Program-made: the position numbers and the translations under genes
Source: a virus
IMG/VR virus record: IMGVR_UViG_3300010396_001257
Span: 1-30,979 of that record
Reading direction: 5' to 3' (one strand)
Length of the DNA: 30,979 nucleotides
Shown: one piece after another, positions 1,141 through 11,698 of the stretch
Numbering within the stretch: position 1 is the first letter of the stretch
Layout: the number at the start of each line of letters is the position of its first letter
Notes under the pieces: generated by a model
What the model saw: only the letters and a program-made list of their open reading frames with translations
Databases searched by the model: none
Told to the model about the DNA's origin: nothing

Positions 1141-1355
1141 CAGGCGATGTCCTCGGGCGAGTAAGCAGGATCGTTGGCCGATGATCCTACCCCAAGTGAC
1201 CGGTTGACCGCTTCAATCGTCGTCCACGGGCCTTCTTTGCCATCGTGTACCGGGATTCCGCGCGAGCTTGCCCACTTCCGCACAGATGCGGCCGTGCGCT
1301 TGCCGGAGAGCTTGCGCAGTTGTTCGGCCTCGATGATGTGCGGATTGGGGGTCAC
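1140..1355 (-). CDS. DUF4224 family protein, likely excision or integrase-accessory factor
   Basis: Small protein of 71 residues resembling DUF4224 proteins that sit directly upstream of phage integrases. The core (EAEQLRKLSGK, then RKWASSRGIPVHDG and a Trp-Thr near TIEAVN) looks like a winged-helix or MerR-like DNA-binding fold that picks an element-specific site. I chose the GTG at 1355: it overlaps the TGA of the upstream ATPase gene as GTGA, the pattern used throughout this operon. An ATG 12 codons upstream would lie inside that gene. Its stop overlaps the int start. A role in recombination directionality is inferred from position and fold. Confidence 0.75.
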   Translation of the reverse strand: MTPNPHIIEAEQLRKLSGKRTAASVRKWASSRGIPVHDGKEGPWTTIEAVNRSLGVGSSANDPAYSPEDIA

Positions 1356-3022
1356 GCACGCTCCGGAAACAGCAATGCGCGCGCCACGCACTGGCCGGGC
1401 GTCGGGTAATCGATCAGGCCAAGCGTGCGCAGTCGTCCGCGCGGATTGTTGAACGATCCTGCGCCCGGCGTGTATCCCGCGGCGTGCGCGAGGTCCGCGC
1501 TGTCCATCGGCTGCGGATAGGCGGCAAGCAGCGGCTGCAGCACGCGCTGCTCCGGTCCCGGCAGCTTCGCCAAAATGCGTTCATGCAGTTCCTGCGTCGA
1601 CGCGGGCGCGGTGGGCGCCTTCGCCAGCGCGCGGCCGCTGTCGGTCAAGCAGATGCGGTTGCCAGCCATGTATTCGACGTGCCCGGATTGCCGCAGCTTG
1701 CCGCGAGGGTTGTTGTAGCTGCCGGCGCCGTAGGCATATCCGGCGAGGAATGCGACGGCCGGCTGCTCGGGTTCTTCGACGCCGATGGATTCCAGCCACG
1801 CGATCGCATCGAGGATGCGCTGTTCCGGGCCTGATAATCCAGCGCTGATTTCTGGTGCTGCTGGAGCCGTGCGCGGACGCACTGCCGGCATGCGGGCGCT
1901 GCGCGGTTCCTGTATCGCTTCGGTGCCAGCGGCGCCGAGCGCACTCCCCGCAATCTCGCTGATGCGCGCAAGAGCCTTGCGCATGCGTTCGTCGCCCGTT
2001 TTATGCAGATTCGAGTCGGCCGGGGCCGAATGCTTGAGCGCTTCGGCAACTGCTGCGCGGATCCGCTCGTCGACTTCCTTCTCCGGCACGCCTGCCTGCT
2101 CCGCGCGCTTGTTGGCCATCGTCGCCTCGCGCTTCAGCTTGGCGTTCAGCGCCTGCAGTTCCTCGACCGTGCGCGCCTCCTGCTCGGCATCCTTCTGCAG
2201 GTCGGCGAGCTTGGCCAGTTCCGACCGTACCTTCTCCGATGCCGGCGGCGGGGCCTGCAGCAATCGCTGGCCCGCTTTCGGATGCGTGGTCACGACTGGT
2301 CCAATCTTGACCAGCTCCGGGGTGCGCGTGAATGCAGGGCCGAACGCGTAAAACTCGCCGGGGTTGAGTCCGCGCAGCGTCTGCAGGGCATCCCGGGCAG
2401 ACATGCCGAGCTCGTCTGCGGCGCGCTTCACGTCGACGTCGAGCCCGGTCAGCCCGACCAGCTTGTTCTGCATCTCGGCCGCGGCGTCCTTGTGCAGCTT
2501 CGACAGGCGCTGGGTCGCCAGCACCGCGCACAGCCCGCGCTTGCGGCCGCGCGTCGCGATGTCGATCACTGCGCCGGCAGATTCAGCGCTGCCCGCTTGC
2601 GGGCAGAACACGTGCGCCTCGTCCAGCACCACCAGTACCGGATGCCAGAGCTTGCGCGGCGCGTTCACCAGCGCTTCCAGGAACCGGCGCACGAATAAGA
2701 CGCGCTCGTGGTGCTTCAGGTCGTAGATGTCGAGGATCGCCGACACGCCCGATTCCATCAGGCGCCGCGCGAGCAATGGCGCGGTCTGCGGAGAAGCGAT
2801 CGCATCCGCATCGTGGGCCGCCGCAATCACGTAATCGAACTTCTCCCGGAGTGTGGCGAACTCACCCTCGGGATCGATCACAAGCTGCTGCACCTTCGGC
2901 GCCGTCTGCTCGAGGATCCGGCGAAGCGCCCACGACTTCCCGCCGCCGCTTCCGGCTTGCACGAGTAGGCGCGTTTCCAGCAGCACCGGGAGATTGATCG
3001 GATGTCCGTCGCTGAGATTCAC
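1352..3022 (-). CDS. HerA/DUF87-type P-loop ATPase with two C-terminal winged-helix repeats
   Basis: Protein of 556 residues. The Walker A motif is GSGGGKSW at 24-31, Walker B is VLVVLDEAH at about 129-137, and a sensor-like ATQR lies near residues 169-172. These are hallmarks of the HerA/DUF87 branch of FtsK-HerA ATPases, which pump or unwind DNA, often with a nuclease partner. A charged coiled-coil segment covers about residues 285-345. The last 160 residues hold two related modules that each begin GPEQR and carry Y.GAGS.NNPRG.LR, probably tandem winged helices for DNA binding. The GTG start at 3022 overlaps the upstream stop as GTGA. Its role in the phage is unknown; it sits between HNH/ParB-type genes and the integration genes. 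Confidence 0.8.
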   Translation of the reverse strand: MNLSDGHPINLPVLLETRLLVQAGSGGGKSWALRRILEQTAPKVQQLVIDPEGEFATLREKFDYVIAAAHDADAIASPQTAPLLARRLMESGVSAILDIYDLKHHERVLFVRRFLEALVNAPRKLWHPVLVVLDEAHVFCPQAGSAESAGAVIDIATRGRKRGLCAVLATQRLSKLHKDAAAEMQNKLVGLTGLDVDVKRAADELGMSARDALQTLRGLNPGEFYAFGPAFTRTPELVKIGPVVTTHPKAGQRLLQAPPPASEKVRSELAKLADLQKDAEQEARTVEELQALNAKLKREATMANKRAEQAGVPEKEVDERIRAAVAEALKHSAPADSNLHKTGDERMRKALARISEIAGSALGAAGTEAIQEPRSARMPAVRPRTAPAAPEISAGLSGPEQRILDAIAWLESIGVEEPEQPAVAFLAGYAYGAGSYNNPRGKLRQSGHVEYMAGNRICLTDSGRALAKAPTAPASTQELHERILAKLPGPEQRVLQPLLAAYPQPMDSADLAHAAGYTPGAGSFNNPRGRLRTLGLIDYPTPGQCVARALLFPERA

Positions 3023-3246
3023 GCAGTTTCCTCCATTGCCCGCAGGTCGATTTCGTCTACGAAGTTGCGCAATTCGTGCCACGCGCGGCGAAGCCGTTTC
3101 GGATCAACCACCACTCGCATGTGGATCGCGCGCCGGTGATCGCGGCGCCAGAGCGTCCACATCACGATCCCGTTGCAGTATGTCCGCGACCAGGTGACGT
3201 CGCGGTCCTTGCTCGGGCGGCGCGTGGTGAGATGGCGAGAGTTCAC
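3019..3246 (-). CDS. Small basic protein, unknown function
   Basis: A 75-residue Arg-rich protein that I do not recognise. It starts at a GTG five bases downstream of the previous gene's region and ends in a GTGA overlap with the ATPase gene, so it is translationally linked to it. The N-terminal half is basic and contains WSRTYCNGIVMWTLWRR; the C-terminal half is predicted helical (RAWHELRNFVDEIDLRAMEE). No domain is evident. It may assist the ATPase, but that is only inferred from the overlap. Confidence 0.6.
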   Translation of the reverse strand: MNSRHLTTRRPSKDRDVTWSRTYCNGIVMWTLWRRDHRRAIHMRVVVDPKRLRRAWHELRNFVDEIDLRAMEETA

Positions 3247-3521: not shown

Positions 3522-4345
3522 GCTCGCTTTTCTCGTTTGTGGATTTGCCGCATCAGCCGGCCGCGCAATTGCACGACGTCCTTCAGCGGCTTGGGAAGGT
3601 TGTGGATGCTGTTGCGGCGCATGTTTTCCGCGAGCGTGACGCATTCCAGAAGATCGTCTGTGATCTCGCTGGACACCAGCGTCTTCATGCCTTGGCGGAA
3701 CCGCACGATGTGGCCAGCAGGCACGGCACCGTGCGCGGCTTCCCACACGATCACGTGCACGGGCTTCCATCGATACGTTGGAAGGATGTTCGGATTGTCG
3801 GTGAGCTTGCGAACGATTACGCCGCGCTTGGAGTCGAACCTCTCGGTGCCGATCGGGACGTAATTGCGCGCCTCGCACGCCGGACGGCCTTTCTTGAACT
3901 GCGTCTCGCGCATGCGGCCGCGCGACCAACCAGGACGGCGAAGCCCCTTGTTGGCTGGCACGTGGCCTTTCGGAAATCGATACGCCCTGCCTACTTCGTC
4001 TCCGCGCCGCAGACGGCAGGCGGCAGGGCTCGCGAGATACGCAGCCGATTTGTGCAGCCCGAGTGCAGTCGCATGCTGCGATACCTGAAGGGGCGAGAGA
4101 CCCATGCCGCGCGCGATGTCCGCGGTGCGCTCATTGGGATAGCGCTTCCGCAGATGCGCATCCTCTGCCGCCGTCCAGCGATGGCGCTCATCGAACCGCA
4201 ATCCGAGATCGCGCGCGCGACGATGGATCGTGCAGGTCGCGCAACACATGAATCGCGCGATCCATTTCACGCTGCGTCCGTTGCCGTGCAGGATCTTCAG
4301 CACGGCATCGTCAAGCTCATCCCATTGGCGACGCATGCCCCTCAT
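3518..4345 (-). CDS. HNH endonuclease with N-terminal helix-turn-helix region
   Basis: A 275-residue protein. Residues 1-105 look like tandem SANT/Myb or winged-helix units (WDELDDAVLK... and RWTAAEDAHLRKRYPNERTADIARGMG), suited to DNA-site recognition. A basic stretch with FPKGHVPANKG and FKKGRPACEARNYVPIG is typical of phage HNH_3-type nucleases. The nuclease core follows at about 190-250, with VHVIVWEAAHG and an Asn near ENMRRNSIHN. It is joined by ATGA overlaps to both the ParB-like gene and the small gene downstream. It could be a phage-encoded homing-type nuclease or a genuine early nuclease. Confidence 0.8.
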   Translation of the reverse strand: MRGMRRQWDELDDAVLKILHGNGRSVKWIARFMCCATCTIHRRARDLGLRFDERHRWTAAEDAHLRKRYPNERTADIARGMGLSPLQVSQHATALGLHKSAAYLASPAACRLRRGDEVGRAYRFPKGHVPANKGLRRPGWSRGRMRETQFKKGRPACEARNYVPIGTERFDSKRGVIVRKLTDNPNILPTYRWKPVHVIVWEAAHGAVPAGHIVRFRQGMKTLVSSEITDDLLECVTLAENMRRNSIHNLPKPLKDVVQLRGRLMRQIHKREKRA

Positions 4346-6132
4346 TCCGCGATCGACCACGGGAATGGTTTTGCTTTTGCCGTGCGCGCCTTGGAAGCTA
4401 TATTCTTGGGCTTCGCCTTCTTCTTGCCATGGGCTTTCTTCGGGATCGCGGGCTTGGCGGGCCGCAAGGGCTTCGGCAGCCAGCCCGCGGGAAAGAGTTC
4501 GACGGCCGACTCCGCAAAGGCCGCCTTCGGAAGTTTGACGAGCTTGGCCAGTGCGAGCTTGTCTGCGCCCGCCTCCTGCGCCATCGCGAGCACGGTGGAC
4601 TTCGGAACCGTGCCCAGCCATTCGGAGGACGGCTTCCACTCGGCCGACAGGTCGACGCCGGCGGCGGCGACGAGATCGACCACGCTTTCTTTCGCGCCGG
4701 CGGAGAAATCGATCACTTCGGTTTCGCGCGCGACCAGGAAGGCCAGCAGTTGCTGGATGGTCGGGAAATCCTGGGCGAGGATCCACGCGCGCAATTCCGT
4801 TCGCTTCTTCGGAAGCCGTTCGCGCCAAGCCTTTTCCATCTCCGCTAGTTTTAGCGCGGCTGGTGCGCTGTCGGCTTGATTGCGAATGGCGGCGGGAATG
4901 CGCCCCGTGTGCTCGCGCGTGACATGCACCCATGTGCGCGGGCCGTTGTAGCCCTGATAGAACACGTCGTCCGCGAGCTCCGCCGCGAGCAATCCCAGCG
5001 CGATCGCTGGATTTCCTGCGATGGCCAGCGCCGCGATCTGGCTTGCCTCGGCCTGCAGGCGCTGCACCGATGCAAACGACAGGTCGCCCGGCTTGCGATC
5101 GGCTGGCGATTTGTGGCCGCCCTTGATGTCGCCCTTCGCGGCCTTGGCCGCGCTCTTGCGATCGCCGGGGCGTACCAGCCCGCGCTCGACGTCTGCCTGT
5201 CCATTGTGGCCAAGACAGACGACGGCGCCAGCGTGCTGCTTCGCTTCGTCCGCATACACCTTCTTGCTGCCTTTGTACGTGCAACGCACTTCTCCGAATC
5301 GCGACCTTTCGGACCAGTCGAAGCGGGTACGCACCTCGACCCATGCCCAGCCCTCTTTGCGCACGCGTTCGGCCGTGCGCTCCAGCTTCTCCAGTGCAAG
5401 GCGCTGCACGAGTTCGGTATCCACAAGGAAGGAATCCTCTTCGTTGCCGAAGAGGTCGCGGCGCACGGTGCCACCGGCCTTTTCGTAGGCCTCAATGCCC
5501 ACGAACTTGCCGATACCACTGGCGACGCTGCATTCCTTGTCCGTGATCGCATCGCGCAGCCTGTTCGGCTCGCGTTCCCACTGGCCCCGCGCGGCCTTCC
5601 AGACGCGAAGCTGCAGAGCCTGGTCGTCCGTCATGGCAAGCGCCATCATCTGCTCGAGCGTGGCATTGCCTTCGCGGTAGTCTTTCAGGACCGTCGGCGA
5701 GATCAGCGCCATGCGCATGCGTTGCTGGACGTAGCGCTCGGTCTTTCCGAAGCGTGTGGCGACTTCACCCACGCTGGCGCCATCTTCGACCAACCTGTTG
5801 AACGCATCGAACTCGTCCGCTGGGTGCATGGCCGAACGGGTGACGTTCTCCGTCAGGCTTGCCTCGTGTGCATCGTCCGCGGCCACGACATTGCAAGGCA
5901 CGAGATAGTCAGGCGCGATCAAATTGCGCTTCGCTAGGTCCTGCAGTGCGCGCAGGCGCATGCCGCCGGCGACGACCTGGTACTGCTCGCCGTGATCGAT
6001 CACTGTCAGGTTTTGCAGTAGCCCATGCGCCTGTATCGAAGCTGCGAGCTCGGAAATATCACTGAGGACCATCTTGCGAACATTGCGCGGCGACGACGCC
6101 AGTTGAGAAAGCGGGACATTGATCAGTTGCAC
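4342..6132 (-). CDS. ParB/Srx-domain protein
   Basis: A 596-residue protein. Residues 1-110 form a ParB/Sulfiredoxin-like domain with a box near GLLQNLTV (37-44), GGMRLRAL (56-63, equivalent of the ParB GERR box) and ENVTRSAMHPADE (95-107). A helix-turn-helix region follows (VGEVATRFGKTERYVQQRM). The long C-terminal part has no recognisable domain and ends in a Lys/Ala-rich tail. I chose the GTG at 6132 because GGAGG lies 8 bases upstream. No ParA is encoded here, so plasmid-style partition seems unlikely. A nuclease, CTPase-clamp or regulatory role is possible. Confidence 0.8.
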   Translation of the reverse strand: MQLINVPLSQLASSPRNVRKMVLSDISELAASIQAHGLLQNLTVIDHGEQYQVVAGGMRLRALQDLAKRNLIAPDYLVPCNVVAADDAHEASLTENVTRSAMHPADEFDAFNRLVEDGASVGEVATRFGKTERYVQQRMRMALISPTVLKDYREGNATLEQMMALAMTDDQALQLRVWKAARGQWEREPNRLRDAITDKECSVASGIGKFVGIEAYEKAGGTVRRDLFGNEEDSFLVDTELVQRLALEKLERTAERVRKEGWAWVEVRTRFDWSERSRFGEVRCTYKGSKKVYADEAKQHAGAVVCLGHNGQADVERGLVRPGDRKSAAKAAKGDIKGGHKSPADRKPGDLSFASVQRLQAEASQIAALAIAGNPAIALGLLAAELADDVFYQGYNGPRTWVHVTREHTGRIPAAIRNQADSAPAALKLAEMEKAWRERLPKKRTELRAWILAQDFPTIQQLLAFLVARETEVIDFSAGAKESVVDLVAAAGVDLSAEWKPSSEWLGTVPKSTVLAMAQEAGADKLALAKLVKLPKAAFAESAVELFPAGWLPKPLRPAKPAIPKKAHGKKKAKPKNIASKARTAKAKPFPWSIAE

Positions 6133-6298
6133 GAAGTGACCTCCACGTTGATGTTTCGCCCCTCGAGGCGATAACTGAAATGACTCGGGACGCACACCTG
6201 CTCGATCCACGGGAAGCGCGCGAGAAAGCGCTGGCGGAAGGCGTGCGCGGGCGTGCCTCGCAGGTGCGCGAAGCGGGATACGGAACAGTTGGCGACGC
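6123..6298 (-). pseudogene. Gene remnant between the HNH gene and the ParB-like gene
   Basis: After the TAA of the HNH gene an open frame continues for about 57 codons (containing FRQRFLARFPWIEQVC and SYRLEGRNINVEVTSCN) and ends at 6123, overlapping the ParB-like gene by 10 bases. Its composition is more protein-like than a shadow frame, but it has no ATG, GTG or TTG with a ribosome site at its beginning. I read it as the 3' remainder of a gene whose front was lost or displaced when the HNH gene arrived. It shares the frame of the truncated avd gene upstream. I cannot assign it to avd or to a reverse transcriptase. Confidence 0.4.
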
Positions 6299-6883
6299 TT
6301 ACAGGCCGAGCGCTTCGGCTGGCGTCATGCCTTGCTTGGAGAGGCGGTGCCGCACCGTGCGCGGGCTGATGCCGCGTTCCCGGCACCAATCGGCCAGCGG
6401 CTTGCTCACGCCCTTGATGGTCAGCACGCGATTGGATGCTCGGGAGCGGGAAGGCGTGGTCAGAGTCTGCTCGTCCGTCCAGCCCATGTGCACCCGTCCC
6501 TGCAAGGTCGCAAGGCTGTGGCCGGTGGATTCGACCCATTCGGCCAGCGTTTTTGTCTGCCCGTTGAAAGTGAGCAGCCGGTTGTCCGAACGGTTGCGTG
6601 AGTTCGTCTTGCGCGCCACCCAGCGGCAATTCGCCGGCTCGTAATGACCATCGTTGTTCACTCGATCCAGCGTTGTGCCGTCCGGACGCTCGCCCATGTC
6701 GGCGAGGAAGTTCTCGAACGATTCGAGCCAGCGGGAGCAGACCTTGATGCCACGTCCGCCATACCGCTCGAAGTGAGCTACCTTCGGATTCGCACAGCGC
6801 CGCTTCATCTGCTGCCAGACCGTGTACGTCGGCCCGCGCCTGCCATCCGGAAGGCGCGTCATGCCATGAGAACGTTTCGCCAT
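6299..6883 (-). CDS. HNH homing-type endonuclease interrupting the avd locus
   Basis: A 194-residue protein. The N-terminal HNH core runs from YTVWQQMKRRC through YGGRGIKVC to TLDRVNNDGHYEP (72-83) and NCRW (85-88), a very common free-standing phage HNH type. The C-terminal half holds two related DNA-recognition modules, LLTFNGQTKTLAEWVE (103-118) and RVLTIKGVSKPLADWC (152-167), each followed by a helix and typical of intron-encoded nuclease (NUMOD-like) repeats. No good ribosome site precedes the ATG at 6883. The DNA just upstream (about 6890-6925) is AT-richer than its surroundings. Position within the avd open frame suggests a mobile gene. Confidence 0.85.
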   Translation of the reverse strand: MAKRSHGMTRLPDGRRGPTYTVWQQMKRRCANPKVAHFERYGGRGIKVCSRWLESFENFLADMGERPDGTTLDRVNNDGHYEPANCRWVARKTNSRNRSDNRLLTFNGQTKTLAEWVESTGHSLATLQGRVHMGWTDEQTLTTPSRSRASNRVLTIKGVSKPLADWCRERGISPRTVRHRLSKQGMTPAEALGL

Positions 6884-7148
6884 AGGTGGAAATCTTACCA
6901 CATAACGGCAACGCAAATAAGCTCAGTTTCAGATCGTCGACCGCCCACACGAGTTCACTGATTCTTTCTGCCTGGTGCGCACGATCGCGCCAGACTCGGT
7001 GCGACAACTTTGCAACCTGCATGGCGCTGTCTCGCAGCGTCGTCCCGTAGCTGTACTTGTGGAAACGCCCGAACTTCATCACGGCTCGCTCGATCTCAAG
7101 CAGGAGCCTTTCGGACTGTTTCACGACGGGTGGGACTACGAAGGCCAT
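6884..7148 (-). pseudogene. avd: Avd-like four-helix-bundle protein, truncated by the HNH gene
   Basis: The first 75 or so codons (ERLLLEIERAVMKFGRFHKY, LRDSAMQVAKL, WRDRAHQAERISELVWAVDDLKLS) match the front of the four-helix-bundle proteins encoded beside DUF1566 genes and reverse transcriptases in diversity-generating retroelements (family recalled, not searched). Avd is the accessory factor that binds the DGR reverse transcriptase. Relatives continue beyond DDLK with a fourth helix of some 30-50 residues. Here the similarity stops near position 6921, where AT-rich DNA leads into the HNH gene. The frame itself stays open to 6123, but that stretch is mostly the shadow of the HNH gene. It starts 27 bases after DUF1566 gene A. 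Confidence 0.6.
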
Positions 7149-7163
7149 GTCAGATCACGCTTG

Positions 7164-7288
7164 CCAAGAGCCGATTACTGACTGGCCGGCGCGGCGCGGC
7201 GGCACGCGAGGACGCGGCCGCTGACGTGCTGGCCGTCGATGAGCGCGCTGCCGTCGTGGAGACCGACGCACCACGCGAACGAGGACGG
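7164..7288 (-). repeat. DGR variable repeat A (3' end of DUF1566 gene A)
   Basis: A 125-nt block aligned without gaps to 10981-11105. The 58 bases at 7164-7221 are identical in both copies (the GC-rich end expected to act as the initiation-of-mutagenic-homing region, plus stop codon and 11 bases beyond). In the rest, 12 positions differ, all in base 1 or 2 of nine NNC/NNT codons: TTC/TAC, TGC/TTC, GGT/AAT, CAC/CGC, GAC/AGC, AGC/TAC, CAC/GAC, GTC/GGC and AGC/TGC (A/B). No third-position change occurs. This is what variation from a template with AAC/AAT codons produces. Confidence 0.88.
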
Positions 7289-7717
7289 CGAGTCCGCATA
7301 GCGCGTGCTCGTCCAGTGCCAACCCGATCCCGGAATGCGAAAGAATGTGGTATCGACCGCGGGTTCCGTGCACGTGTAATCGACGATCGAAAGACGTTCC
7401 TGGATCGTTGGCCAGCGCCAATCCTCAAAACCGCCCGTGCGCAGATCGGAGCATGCCTTTTCCGAAGACGCCCAATCGGACACCTTCTGGTCTTCGGCGC
7501 ACCACATGAGGCCCATGGTGTTGTCCAGCACCGCATCCCACGTTTTTGCATCGCAGGAGACTGGGGCGCCCATGACATATTTGATGAACCGAGGCGATTC
7601 CTCGGCGCCGGCGGCCTCCTTGCGTCCGGTCACGGCGTGCAAGATCGCAAAGGGAAGGGTCCTCGGCTCGGCCGAGTGAATGTGTACGTTTTCGATGTTG
7701 ATCAACGCGGGCTTCAT
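7175..7717 (-). CDS. DUF1566 (Lcl-type C-terminal domain) DGR target protein A
   Basis: A 180-residue protein. Residues 1-60 are unassigned. From about residue 62 it is a DUF1566 domain (LDNTMGLMWC, WRWPTIQERLSIVDY, WHWTSTRYAD), a C-type-lectin-like ligand-binding fold often diversified by DGRs. The last 37 residues (144-180) are the variable repeat, ending in invariant RVLACRRAAPASQ. Variable residues cluster at FAWCVGLHDGS and QHVSGR, where surface loops are expected. AAAGGA precedes the ATG by about 7 bases. It lies upstream of avd in the usual target-avd order, yet inside the early recombination operon rather than with tail genes. What it binds cannot be told from sequence. Confidence 0.85.
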   Translation of the reverse strand: MKPALINIENVHIHSAEPRTLPFAILHAVTGRKEAAGAEESPRFIKYVMGAPVSCDAKTWDAVLDNTMGLMWCAEDQKVSDWASSEKACSDLRTGGFEDWRWPTIQERLSIVDYTCTEPAVDTTFFRIPGSGWHWTSTRYADSPSSFAWCVGLHDGSALIDGQHVSGRVLACRRAAPASQ

Positions 7718-7749
7718 GGCGGTCCTTTTGAATAGCGAACGGGGAGAAA

Positions 7750-8268
7750 TCAGGCAGCGAGCTTTTGTTGCGCCGGCTCGTCAGCATCCGGCGGCGTCAA
7801 GGTGATTTCGACGGTCTCCTGGATAAGCTGGCAAAGCTTTCCGCTGGTGCGGCCATCCGGGTGGAAGCTGGCGCGGAACGTGATCAACACGCTGCCGCCA
7901 TCCAGCGCTTCGAACACGAAGCCCGAGAGTTCAACGTCAGACAGTTTCAGTGCTTCATCCAGCGCGAGTCCGGTCGTGATGCTGAGTTCGTAGCCAGGGA
8001 AGTCTTCGTCCCACTTGAGCGGCGCCAGGTGCGGAAGCTTGCGCTGGGTCAGCCCGTCGTGATCGTTCAAAGGAAGGTCTGCTTGCTCGCCCGCACCGGG
8101 CTTGCGGTACAACATCTTTTTCAGCGCCTTGTCGAAATGATCGAGCGCGCTGTTGCCGCACGTCACTTCGAACTTGAGATCGCCGGCTGAAACGTTTTCC
8201 TCTCCGTGCTTCTCCGCACGCGGGTTGAACGATGCGATCTTCGCTTGGTGGTTTTCGAGATTGAACAC
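7750..8268 (-). CDS. Conserved phage protein of the recombination module
   Basis: A 172-residue acidic protein starting at GTG 8268, with AGGAG 7 bases upstream. I recall similar proteins (FNPRAEKHGEE, LDHFDKALKKMLYRKP, WDEDFPGYEL, SGKLCQLIQETVEITLTPP) beside recT and exonuclease genes in Burkholderia and Pseudomonas phages. The alternation of strands suggests a beta-rich fold. Position suggests a helper in single-strand annealing or DNA protection, but no catalytic motif is visible and function is unknown. Confidence 0.75.
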   Translation of the reverse strand: MFNLENHQAKIASFNPRAEKHGEENVSAGDLKFEVTCGNSALDHFDKALKKMLYRKPGAGEQADLPLNDHDGLTQRKLPHLAPLKWDEDFPGYELSITTGLALDEALKLSDVELSGFVFEALDGGSVLITFRASFHPDGRTSGKLCQLIQETVEITLTPPDADEPAQQKLAA

Positions 8269-8294
8269 GTGGCTACTCCTGGCGAGGAAAAGGA

Positions 8295-8344
8295 GGCGGC
8301 GATCAGGGACGGAAGGGGGAGTCCGTTGAAGCCCGATCGCCGCC
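8295..8344 (-). repeat. Intergenic hairpin in the left operon
   Basis: A perfect 10-bp inverted repeat (GGCGGCGATC at 8295-8304, GATCGCCGCC at 8335-8344), extended inward by GGG/CCC with one bulged A. A smaller ACGGA/TCCGT stem lies inside the loop. It fills the gap between the coiled-coil gene stop and the next ribosome site. On the minus transcript it is followed by TCCTTTTCCT, which is not a clean T-tract. It may be a weak terminator, an attenuator or an RNase III site. Confidence 0.5.
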
Positions 8345-8352
8345 GGTGAAAC

Positions 8353-9216
8353 TCATGCGGACCGGCGCACCGAGAGCAGGTCTTCGGCGAATACGCGCAC
8401 GCCGGGGATCCGCGCAGCGCCCTTCAGCGCCTTCGCGACCTGGCCAAGCGCTTTCGTGTTCGGCTCGATGTAGCCGAGCAATGTTGTGTCTCCACGCGCT
8501 GCTGCTGCTGCGGCCGCGCTGACGAGAGCCTGGAAATCCTCGACTTCAGCCTTCCAGTTCTGACGGCCGCTAATGCCGGCGGTCTTGGCCGGGGCAATCA
8601 TGGGCAATACCGGCGCGACGTCGGCAATCTCGATCTCGGCCTTGGCGGCGTCGGCTTTGGCGCGCGCTTCTGCTTCCGCGGCGGCGGCTCTTTCGGCTTC
8701 CTCGCGGGCGATGCGTTCGGCTTCCTTGGCCGCGGCTTCGTTGCCGGCGGCGCGTTCACGCTCGATCGCGACCAGTCGTTCGCGTTCGGCCTTGATCTGT
8801 TCCTCGCGGATTCGGCGCGCCTCAGCTTCAGCGGCCGCCTGCTCGCGTTCCAGACGCTCGCGTTCGGCTTTGGCGACGGCTTCAGCTTCGCGGCGCTTGC
8901 GGTCGGCTTCTTCGCGTTCCTTGACCTGATACGCGACGATGCCCTTGCGCAGCAATCCTTCGGCTTCGGCCAGCCGATCGGTGGGCGTGCGAAACAGGTC
9001 CATGATCCGCTTCTTGGCTTCATCGATCGGCCGGGTGAGAGACAGGCGCAGTTCCTCAATCTCCTTCTTGCGCGCGACCAGGCGGCGCAGTTCTTCGCCG
9101 GCCACATCCAGAGCGGCGGGCGAATCGATCTCGAGGGTGAGTGCCAGCTCGTGCGCTGAGTTGGCGATTCGAGAGGCTTGAGCGAGTTCGCGCGATTCGC
9201 TGACATCGGCATTCAT
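8353..9216 (-). CDS. Coiled-coil protein of the recombination module
   Basis: A 287-residue protein. Residues 25-85 are helical with ELRRLVARKKEIEELR. Residues 85-200 are a long Ala/Glu/Arg-rich coiled coil. The C-terminal 75 residues (GRQNWKAEVEDFQALV ... GYIEPNTKALGQVAKAL ... GVRVFAEDLLSVRR) form a compact conserved module that I recall at the end of similar phage proteins next to exonuclease and recT. It starts at ATG 9216, overlapping the exonuclease stop as ATGA. A structural role in a recombination complex is inferred from context. The coding DNA is strongly repetitive because of the Ala/Glu codons. Confidence 0.75.
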   Translation of the reverse strand: MNADVSESRELAQASRIANSAHELALTLEIDSPAALDVAGEELRRLVARKKEIEELRLSLTRPIDEAKKRIMDLFRTPTDRLAEAEGLLRKGIVAYQVKEREEADRKRREAEAVAKAERERLEREQAAAEAEARRIREEQIKAERERLVAIERERAAGNEAAAKEAERIAREEAERAAAAEAEARAKADAAKAEIEIADVAPVLPMIAPAKTAGISGRQNWKAEVEDFQALVSAAAAAAARGDTTLLGYIEPNTKALGQVAKALKGAARIPGVRVFAEDLLSVRRSA

Positions 9217-9809
9217 GCGGCTTTCTCCAGATAGTTGTGCAGCGTCAAGGCCGCGAGGAATACGCGGAGGTCGTTCGGGTCTTTCTGAGGCACCAAGCGC
9301 CAGCGTTCCGGCGTCAGGTGCAAGGCGTAGCGGTCGGAGACCTGCCACTCGCCGTCGTAAAGCTCGGCGAGCGCGGCGCGATACGCGGCGGTCTGGGGCC
9401 CCGCACTGCGCGGCACGGCGGCGGTGCGTTTTGCATCAATGATTGCGCGTGTGCCGTTGAGCGTACCGGCAAGATCGAGCGTCCCGGCGTAGCCATACCT
9501 GGCCGAGTGAACACGACATTCGCTGTGAATCACCTGGAATCCGGATTGCGCACGGAACTGACGCCATTGCGCGAGATAAGGACGCAGCGAATCGTCCAAC
9601 GGGTCTTCATCCAACGTTCCCGCGATGTCGAGCTCGATCAGCTTGTGGACGGCCTTCCCGAGCAGTGCGCTGCGTTCCATGGTTTCGCGGTCGACGGCGC
9701 GGTACTCGTGTGCGGTGATTGGGCGCAGCACTGTCGTCACACCCGGCAATACATTGCCGTCGAGGCGGTACTCGTGCTCGACTTCATCGAATTGCAGGCC
9801 GTCCGCCAC
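9213..9809 (-). CDS. PD-(D/E)XK exonuclease, partner of RecT
   Basis: A 198-residue nuclease of the Cas4/RecB-like PD-(D/E)XK superfamily. Visible motifs are Glu97 (HSECRV), Asp112 (YAGTLDLAG), Asp125-Ala-Lys127 (IIDAK) and the downstream Gln139...Tyr143 (QTAAY). An exonuclease that resects double-stranded ends would supply 3' single strands to the annealase encoded just upstream. I prefer GTG 9809: GGAAGG sits 6 bases before it. The TTG at 9815, which overlaps the recT stop, leaves no spacing. Confidence 0.85.
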   Translation of the reverse strand: MADGLQFDEVEHEYRLDGNVLPGVTTVLRPITAHEYRAVDRETMERSALLGKAVHKLIELDIAGTLDEDPLDDSLRPYLAQWRQFRAQSGFQVIHSECRVHSARYGYAGTLDLAGTLNGTRAIIDAKRTAAVPRSAGPQTAAYRAALAELYDGEWQVSDRYALHLTPERWRLVPQKDPNDLRVFLAALTLHNYLEKAA

Positions 9810-9811
9810 GA

Positions 9812-10888
9812 TCAACCTTCCTGCGCCGCAGCGGCGTCGGCATCGATCATCGACTGCAGCTCGTCACGAACTGCGTTGAAGTTGGCCGTATCAATCGCCG
9901 GGTACCGCTCGGAAAGCGCTTCCTTCGTGACGCCGGCGCGCTTGGCCAGATCGTCGAGGATGCGCTTGAGCGATGCGGAGAGCGGCTTGCCGGCGTGCGC
10001 GGGCGTCCCAACTTCCGGAACTTCCGCTTGCCCGGAGACGTCAGCCTGTTGTGCTTGCGCCTCCTGCTTCTCGGGCGCTTTCGCCTGCGGCATTGCCACC
10101 CCAGGCGCAGTCTCGGCACCAATTTCTGACGCATCCTGTTCTACCGGCGCCCACGTGCCATCGATCGCATCATCGATATCGACGTGCTGCTTCCCGGTAT
10201 CGGCCGTGTTGTCGAGCGCGAGCGCCGTCGCAAGCTCTGCGGATTTCGGCAGATATTTGCAAATGCGACGGATCAGGGTCTTGCGCCACATCTCCTCTTC
10301 GTCGGTGTCCCAAGGCGTTTTCTTGCCATACTTCCGCGCATTGATCACGTTTTGCGAGCGATCGCGGATCGCTTCGATCTGCCGGCGCGTCATGACCTCG
10401 ACATGGAATCCACCGCCGTCGATTTCCGCGACAGCGTAGGCCAGCCGCGCTTCGCCGGGGTCGCCATCCAACACCGGCTTGTGGACCAAGCGTGTGGTGA
10501 GCCCAACTTCGTACTCGAACGTGTCGTTCGCGTGAACGACATGCGCTTCGATGCGCGATACCTTGCCGCTCCGGCGCACCAGCTCGATCAGGCCCTGATA
10601 GCCGATTTGCAGCTGGCACTCGTCCTTGTACGGGATCAGATAACACTGACCCATGACGCCTGGCTCAAGCCCGAGCTGCGAGGCGATGATGATCGATGCG
10701 AATACACTGCGGGGCTCGCACTTCGCGAGTTTTGGATTGCTGCGGAAGCTCGTCAGCGCAATGCGCGCCATGCGATCGCCGTCCAGATGCTTCGGCAGCG
10801 CGCGCGCGATCTCGCCCTTGAAGCGCTCCAGCATCGCCGGGAAATTGTCCGGAGCCCTGCGTGTGATCTGTTGAGTGTGCTCGTTCAT
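9812..10888 (-). CDS. recT: RecT-family single-strand annealing protein
   Basis: A 358-residue protein. The RecT core at about residues 20-225 includes ALPKHLDGDRMARIALTS, ASQLGLEPGVMGQCYLIPY, QIGYQGLIELVRRSG and MWRKTLIRRICKYLP. It anneals complementary single strands during phage recombination and replication. The C-terminal third is a Gln/Ala/Pro-rich linker and a short helical module (LKRILDDLAKRAGVTKEAL), longer than in minimal RecT and perhaps a site for binding host SSB or the exonuclease. AAGGA precedes the ATG by 9 bases. It forms a unit with the exonuclease downstream. Confidence 0.93.
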   Translation of the reverse strand: MNEHTQQITRRAPDNFPAMLERFKGEIARALPKHLDGDRMARIALTSFRSNPKLAKCEPRSVFASIIIASQLGLEPGVMGQCYLIPYKDECQLQIGYQGLIELVRRSGKVSRIEAHVVHANDTFEYEVGLTTRLVHKPVLDGDPGEARLAYAVAEIDGGGFHVEVMTRRQIEAIRDRSQNVINARKYGKKTPWDTDEEEMWRKTLIRRICKYLPKSAELATALALDNTADTGKQHVDIDDAIDGTWAPVEQDASEIGAETAPGVAMPQAKAPEKQEAQAQQADVSGQAEVPEVGTPAHAGKPLSASLKRILDDLAKRAGVTKEALSERYPAIDTANFNAVRDELQSMIDADAAAAQEG

Positions 10889-10912
10889 TGCTTCATGTCC
10901 TTGGATTGAGAA

Positions 10913-10967
10913 CCGGCCACCTCGCTACGCGCGGAGGGGTTGCGCGCCTGACCTGCGAGGCGGCCGG
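10913..10967 (-). repeat. Intergenic hairpin between DUF1566 gene B and recT
   Basis: Arms CCGGCCACCTCG (10913-10924) and CGAGGCGGCCGG (10956-10967) pair at 11 of 12 positions, with an inner CGCGC/GCGCG stem. It lies 13 bases beyond the end of variable repeat B. In phage BPP-1 a hairpin just downstream of the variable repeat is needed for target recognition, but that one is shorter and closer. I see no equally clear hairpin after repeat A. It may simply be a transcript hairpin upstream of recT. Confidence 0.5.
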
Positions 10968-10980
10968 GGAAACGCTTTGG

Positions 10981-11105
10981 CCAAGAGCCGATTACTGACT
11001 GGCCGGCGCGGCGCGGCGGCACGCGAGGACGCGGCCGCAGCCGTCCTGGCCGTCGATGAGCGCGTAGCCGCTGCGGAGATTGACGAACCACGCGTACGAG
11101 GACGG
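10981..11105 (-). repeat. DGR variable repeat B (3' end of DUF1566 gene B)
   Basis: The partner of 7164-7288, the same length with no gaps. Bases 10981-11038 are identical to 7164-7221. The 12 differences all fall in the first two bases of NNC/NNT codons. Farther upstream in the gene the similarity continues more weakly and includes third-position changes (ACG/ACA, GCG/GCC, GAC/GAA). The mutable window therefore probably ends near the shared CCG TCC TCG, or the copies diverged earlier there. Confidence 0.88.
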
Positions 11106-11426
11106 CGCTTCGGCATCGACTGTGGCCGTCCAGCACCAGGTGCCTTCGACGCCAGGGAATGCTTCGGTGTCGATCGCCGGCACGTAGCGGGAGCGATCGC
11201 ACAGCGCGAACAGCTCTTCGACCTCCGGCAAACGCCAGTCTTTGGCGGACGCCAGATCCATCGCCGCACAGGCGTCTTTCGCCTCCGTATACGTCAGGCG
11301 CTTGGGGCTGATGAAGCTTGCCGACCAGATCAGGCCGGTGCGCTGATCGAGCACGGCGACGTGATCTTTTGCATCGGCCTGGAGCTGCGCGCCATCGGCG
11401 CCGATCTTTACGAAATGCTGTTGCAT
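10992..11426 (-). CDS. DUF1566 DGR target protein B
   Basis: A 144-residue protein with a DUF1566 domain starting near residue 22 (VLDQRTGLIWSASF, YTEAKDACAAMD, WRLPEVEELFALCD, WCWTATVD). Residues 108-144 are the variable repeat and end in the same RVLACRRAAPASQ as protein A. The ATG at 11426 has AGGAGA 7 bases upstream. A TTG 11 codons earlier has no such site. Compared with protein A it lacks most of the N-terminal extension. It lies directly upstream of recT in the early left operon. No signal peptide or tail-attachment domain is visible, so its display site (virion, cell surface or cytoplasm) is unknown. Confidence 0.85.
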   Translation of the reverse strand: MQQHFVKIGADGAQLQADAKDHVAVLDQRTGLIWSASFISPKRLTYTEAKDACAAMDLASAKDWRLPEVEELFALCDRSRYVPAIDTEAFPGVEGTWCWTATVDAEAPSSYAWFVNLRSGYALIDGQDGCGRVLACRRAAPASQ

Positions 11427-11455
11427 GAAGGTGTCTCCTGTGGAAAGGAATGTGC

Positions 11456-11698
11456 TCAACGCTCGCTCTTCGCGATGATTTCGAGCGCTTCTTCGTAGCT
11501 GGGGAGTTCCGCGCGCTTGCCGTCCTTCGAGAGCAGCGACTGCGCGCGGGCGCGGATCGTGATTTCCTGGGCGGTCGGCATCGCCGGCAAACGCTCAACC
11601 TTGTGGCCGCCTGCGAAGCCGTACTGAATCGGCTTGAACGGCTGCGGCTCGGGTTGCGGGCAGTTCGGTACGGCGCGGAGCTTGCGGGCGGTTCTCAT
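11456..11698 (-). CDS. Small protein, unknown function
   Basis: An 80-residue protein that I do not recognise. The basic N-terminus (MRTARKLRAVPNCP) is followed by a Pro-rich stretch (PQPEPQPFKPIQYGF) and a helical C-terminal half (AQEITIRARAQSLLSK, SYEEALEIIAKSER). It starts at ATG 11698 in an ATGA overlap with the gene upstream, which supports real, coupled translation. Confidence 0.6.
   Translation of the reverse strand: MRTARKLRAVPNCPQPEPQPFKPIQYGFAGGHKVERLPAMPTAQEITIRARAQSLLSKDGKRAELPSYEEALEIIAKSER

Follow-up and report, generated by a model that had tools for sequence, protein, structure and literature searches.

Organization of the locus

The analysed DNA, here called the window, is the complete record IMGVR_UViG_3300010396_001257 (30,979 nt), a 31-kb linear virus contig that has head genes at its end and is probably incomplete. 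Diversity-generating retroelements (DGRs) vary a single segment of a protein through reverse transcription that is prone to error. Two genes of the DUF1566/Lcl_C family in the window, DUF1566-A and DUF1566-B, carry at their 3' ends the variable repeats VR-A and VR-B of such an element. Both genes lie in the early region around the recT and exonuclease genes, with the head genes at the opposite end. Next to VR-A are found remnants of an avd gene and of a reverse transcriptase (RT) gene, separated by an HNH endonuclease gene. The features of the locus are:

4342..6133, minus strand: parB-like gene, also found 3' of the RT gene in several relatives, which fixes the synteny
6123..6284, minus strand: RT stub, 3'-terminal ~52 codons of the RT gene (family RT HMM, E=4.6e-5)
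6299..6883, minus strand: HNH endonuclease gene, located where relatives have the template repeat (TR) and most of the RT gene (phrog_3377, E=1.5e-61)
6921..7148, minus strand: avd stub, first ~75 codons, then broken (family HMM, E=4e-30)
7164-7288, minus strand: VR-A, variable repeat and constant 3' end (variable codons 7220-7279)
7175..7717, minus strand: DUF1566-A, DGR target gene, 180 aa, Lcl_C domain (Pfam Lcl_C, E=4e-21)
9213..10888, minus strand: exonuclease and recT genes between both targets (context only)
10981-11105, minus strand: VR-B, variable repeat (variable codons 11037-11096)
10992..11426, minus strand: DUF1566-B, DGR target gene (Pfam Lcl_C, E=6e-23; AlphaFold model with C-type-lectin-like fold)

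DUF1566-B starts at the ATG at 11426, as does its counterpart in the related record L003 (IMGVR_UViG_3300010373_000180); a longer frame begins with TTG and extends to 11459. The AlphaFold model of the protein (pLDDT 91) has a predicted C-type-lectin-like fold, as found in DGR targets, and its best PDB match is the carboxyl-terminal domain of Legionella Lcl (8q4e). Across the family, diversity in the carboxyl-terminal region is highest at the variable residues, with a mean entropy of 2.8 versus 1.3 bits. Elsewhere in the window, a gene for a HerA/DUF87-type ATPase (1352-3082, minus strand) adjoins an integrase-like gene; a homologue with 62% identity is located 3' of the RT gene in the related locus L055.

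The two variable repeats

VR-A and VR-B belong to a direct repeat of 159 nt that is 86% identical and ungapped (7163-7321 and 10980-11138). The preliminary description of this DNA had reported two gapless blocks of 125 nt, 7164-7288 and 10981-11105, which both the direct-repeat search and the codon comparison confirm. When the minus strands of the blocks are compared codon by codon, in the reading frame that the two DUF1566 genes use, 12 mismatches are found in nine codons, distributed as 5, 7 and 0 over codon positions 1, 2 and 3. Every affected codon is NNC or NNT, while the final 58 bases of the coding strand, which comprise the last codons and 11 nt beyond the stop, are equal in the two copies. 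These figures agree with the earlier counts. There is no silent difference between VR-A and VR-B over 32 codons. Upstream of the repeat block, on its 5' side, the identity of the two proteins is just ~40-45%.

The relative L003 has one DUF1566 gene with a VR. Its repeat differs from those of the window mostly in the same type of codon and adds two further variable codons. Outside the VR, DUF1566-B and its L003 homologue are constrained (dN 0.077, dS 0.50), whereas inside the VR the ratio is reversed (dN 0.14, dS 0.04).

Templates of related retroelements

When the DUF1566 and Avd proteins served as queries, profile searches retrieved 45 viral and 13 genome loci. The related loci, about 50 and mainly from Xanthomonadales prophages, have mainly the gene order DUF1566(VR)-Avd-TR-RT, and their named hosts belong to Rhodanobacter, Stenotrophomonas, Xanthomonas and Pseudoxanthomonas. 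Four Paraburkholderia matches in the set are weak and showed no cassette. An initial DUF1566 scan of genome contigs gave no matches, and no close relatives of DUF1566-B or Avd at the protein level were found among phage records. A scan of IMG/VR for the codon pattern of VRs gave 42 matches, most of them by chance; true VRs were present only in L003/L011, in L015 and in the record of L004/L028/L033. The last of these, IMGVR_UViG_3300047160_007322 (45 kb, also L210), contains four VR-like repeats of related type; it has no RVT_1 or Avd match and may be a fragment. Besides two VRs, L015 features an Avd-like gene, an RT gene and a template with AAC codons. Its RT frame (1882-3234, minus strand) continues upstream across the template repeat without a stop, and the ORF caller consequently takes the AAC-rich template for coding sequence in a different frame.

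DUF1566 DGRs of Xanthomonadales prophages, for example those of Rhodanobacter thiooxydans LCS2 (L102), Stenotrophomonas rhizophila (L108), Xanthomonas melonis (L107) and Pseudoxanthomonas winnipegensis (L104), share with the window the target family, the Avd family, the register of the variable codons and the gene order up to avd. They have TR and RT directly after avd, where the window has the HNH gene and the RT stub.

The Rhodanobacter template reads GAC TAC GCG TGG AAC GTC AAC TTC AAC AAC GGC AAC GCC AAC TAC AAC CAC CAG AAC AAC AAC GGG. Of its 66 positions 25 are adenines, and each of the 12 differences between VR-A and VR-B coincides with one of them (p=1.1e-6), which excludes chance. The first variable codon of the window is aligned to a TAC codon of this template and varies at base 2 alone because TAC has a single adenine. 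In one template branch an AAT codon occupies the same place as the NNT codon of the window. Fourteen relatives with a template, scored likewise, have 13-22 mismatches per VR pair, with at most 2 off template adenines. The template comparison settles the origin of the pattern: VR-A and VR-B are variable repeats of a DGR. The preliminary description had read the mismatches as a DGR footprint and advised a search for a third, adenine-rich copy. That reading is upheld by templates with AAC/AAT codons in register at related loci and by the Avd and RT remnants that adjoin VR-A; a search of the whole record found no third copy.

A cassette interrupted by an HNH gene

The avd gene starts at 7148, after DUF1566-A, and its DNA homology to relatives stops at 6921-6928. 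The stub matches positions 1-75 of 123 of the family HMM and is 65% identical to Rhodanobacter Avd; its score against NF033474 (E=0.0017) is under the cut-off of that model. The window thus encodes the first ~75 codons of Avd and not the full-length protein. At the other side of the HNH gene, the RT stub matches positions 334-385 of 386 of the family RT HMM and was also detected by tblastn (E=2e-4 over the whole window); it is short and its E-value is moderate. No RVT_1 domain is found in the record, which has only this carboxyl-terminal RT stub. The two stubs flank an open HNH gene and synteny with the parB-like gene is kept; a gene of this kind also lies 3' of RT in L063, L069, L070, L089, L096 and L099. 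In its assembled form the DGR is therefore disabled, a state that the preliminary description had missed.

Two other interpretations of this segment were rejected. A frame of 341 aa (6123-7148) spans the HNH gene and connects the Avd stub with the RT stub, but it was rejected as a candidate fusion protein, since in the second HNH-bearing locus described below the avd frame stops at the start of the HNH gene. An intron around the HNH gene was discarded because no Rfam match was found in 5900-11600. A hairpin after the VR, as present in BPP-1, gave no folding signal in the window nor in intact relatives.

Loss of RT is also seen at related loci of other make-up. L068 (IMGVR_UViG_3300048597_000667, 9115-11264) has two VRs and a full-length Avd, is RT-less, and carries an unrelated ORF of 294 aa (10380-11264) where TR and RT belong. 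L220, in the whole Xanthomonadales genome G398 (G398:C23, 6957-7382, minus strand), is an orphan DUF1566 gene with a VR; the genome has neither an RVT_1 nor an Avd match.

A second HNH-bearing cassette

An arrangement like that of the window, sequenced and assembled independently of it, is found in the prophage L075 (IMGVR_UViG_2885298228_000001, 35 kb), which has two VRs, a cut avd gene, an HNH gene and a carboxyl-terminal RT stub (E=6e-6), with no RVT_1 match. Its breakpoints are unlike those of the window: avd is cut at codon ~92 and the last ~37 codons of RT are left. The constant region of its VRs also differs, and its Avd is from another branch. The HNH products of the two loci are 66% identical over their full length, that of L075 being the closest to the window's found in IMG/VR, while the next-best matches found there are 49-55% identical over parts of the protein. 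Across 399 Xanthomonadales genomes there were just partial matches (45-52%). The two HNH genes are sisters in the tree (SH-aLRT 98) and their divergence (dN 0.31, dS 1.52) indicates purifying selection. A sister relationship of the two Avd genes is rejected (AU p=0.014, in a tree of about 97 columns with long branches), each being nearest to RT-bearing loci.

On the simplest reading of these trees, two distinct cassettes were probably each displaced by one of the related HNH genes, because the HNH genes are sisters, the Avd genes are not, the breakpoints differ and a lost TR-RT is not easily regained. We tentatively suggest, while leaning against it on balance, that the two genes may represent a lineage of homing endonucleases specialised in the invasion of phage DGR cassettes. 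Such genes would replace TR-RT between avd and the RT end, switching the mutator off and freezing its targets, which could then be changed only in trans.

Origin and present state of the variation

VR-A and VR-B are very likely the variable repeats of a phage DGR of the DUF1566/Avd type whose cassette has since been broken, with the HNH gene in place of TR and the rest of RT. An adenine-mutating reverse transcriptase would have copied one template into both DUF1566 genes, rewriting about nine to eleven codons of the C-type-lectin-like domain. A later break would have cut avd after ~75 codons and reduced RT to its last ~52, with the HNH gene between them, a replacement in which this gene probably acted as a homing endonuclease. 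The VRs may now be fixed in the state that the final rounds of diversification left, or they may rely on TR and RT from elsewhere. The reconstituted BPP-1 system needs every one of Avd, TR and RT (PMC12875486); with TR absent from the local cassette, RT reduced to its end and Avd incomplete, the locus would be unable to diversify its targets alone. Judged from the absence of silent differences between VR-A and VR-B over 32 codons, the two repeats were last rewritten a short time ago compared with the separation from L003. This implies either a recent loss of the cassette or continuing rewriting in trans.

Continuing rewriting would depend on TR and RT from a further prophage or DGR that shares the cell, making the phage's own cassette unneeded. 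The lack of silent change fits it, activity in trans at incomplete loci was reported in Thiohalocapsa (PMC10907252), and RT-less carriers of several VRs exist (L068, L075). A donor template, however, is not seen: two patterns of the constant region found no template carrying that of the window in IMG/VR, and in the sampled Xanthomonadales and class-level genomes there was no close copy, the best one (71% identity) being an orphan VR. The constant region of L075 likewise occurs in no other contig of the same isolate, and an orphan VR gene is present in a whole genome without RVT_1 match. Rewriting in trans is on this evidence rather unlikely, with an appreciable chance of being correct. A donor could also lie in the phage itself, as a complete second DGR with matching TR and RT in the part of the genome beyond the contig. 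The record is an incomplete linear contig, many DGRs have multiple targets and a Stenotrophomonas DGR has two TRs (PMC6642488), but in the examined relatives TR and RT come directly after avd beside DUF1566, the very place that the stubs occupy here, and a second element is accordingly held to be improbable.

The assembly itself may be questioned if the contig is a deletion variant or a chimera and most phage copies have an intact avd-TR-RT. Long reads from Thiohalocapsa did give structural variants with intact RT at an incompletely assembled DGR locus (PMC10907252); against such a case, which we consider quite improbable, stands the separately sequenced L075, with the same order, its own breakpoints and a sister HNH gene. 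It is harder still to regard the two genes as ordinary paralogues shaped by positive selection or gene conversion without any retroelement. Gene conversion would likewise homogenise the constant 3' end, yet these processes predict neither that all changes fall on template adenines of related DGRs, nor the complete lack of third-position changes, nor Avd and RT remnants adjoining VR-A, leaving them a negligible probability.

Relation to known systems and significance

DUF1566 targets, multiple VRs and a DGR of Stenotrophomonas sp. SKA14 with several DUF1566 targets are already published (PMC6642488). The window shares with the DGR of Bordetella phage BPP-1 the adenine-specific rewriting of a C-type-lectin fold and the avd-TR-RT logic, while the BPP-1 target is a tail fibre and those of the window lie near recT, in the early region. 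Incomplete cassettes have been described from crAss-like phages (PMC7290462, PMC11054128); like this one they retain VRs, while the RT gene is shortened or lost altogether and TR may be absent as well. These papers mention no HNH gene in the place of the cassette, whereas the window has one. The crAssphage LMMB cassette is without avd, of which the window keeps a stub. Partial DGRs were also described in Nanoarchaeota (PMC4372165). What is new is an HNH gene between avd and RT stubs, in the place of TR-RT, seen twice; the open-access literature, the part searched, yielded no description of such an arrangement.

Searches for DGRs usually start from RT or from TR-VR pairs and so miss a phage like this one despite its clearly diversified targets. 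The locus represents a concrete route by which a hypermutation system is lost, seen twice and with related endonuclease genes. It also offers a clean setting in which to ask if orphan VRs no longer change or undergo rewriting by a co-resident DGR.
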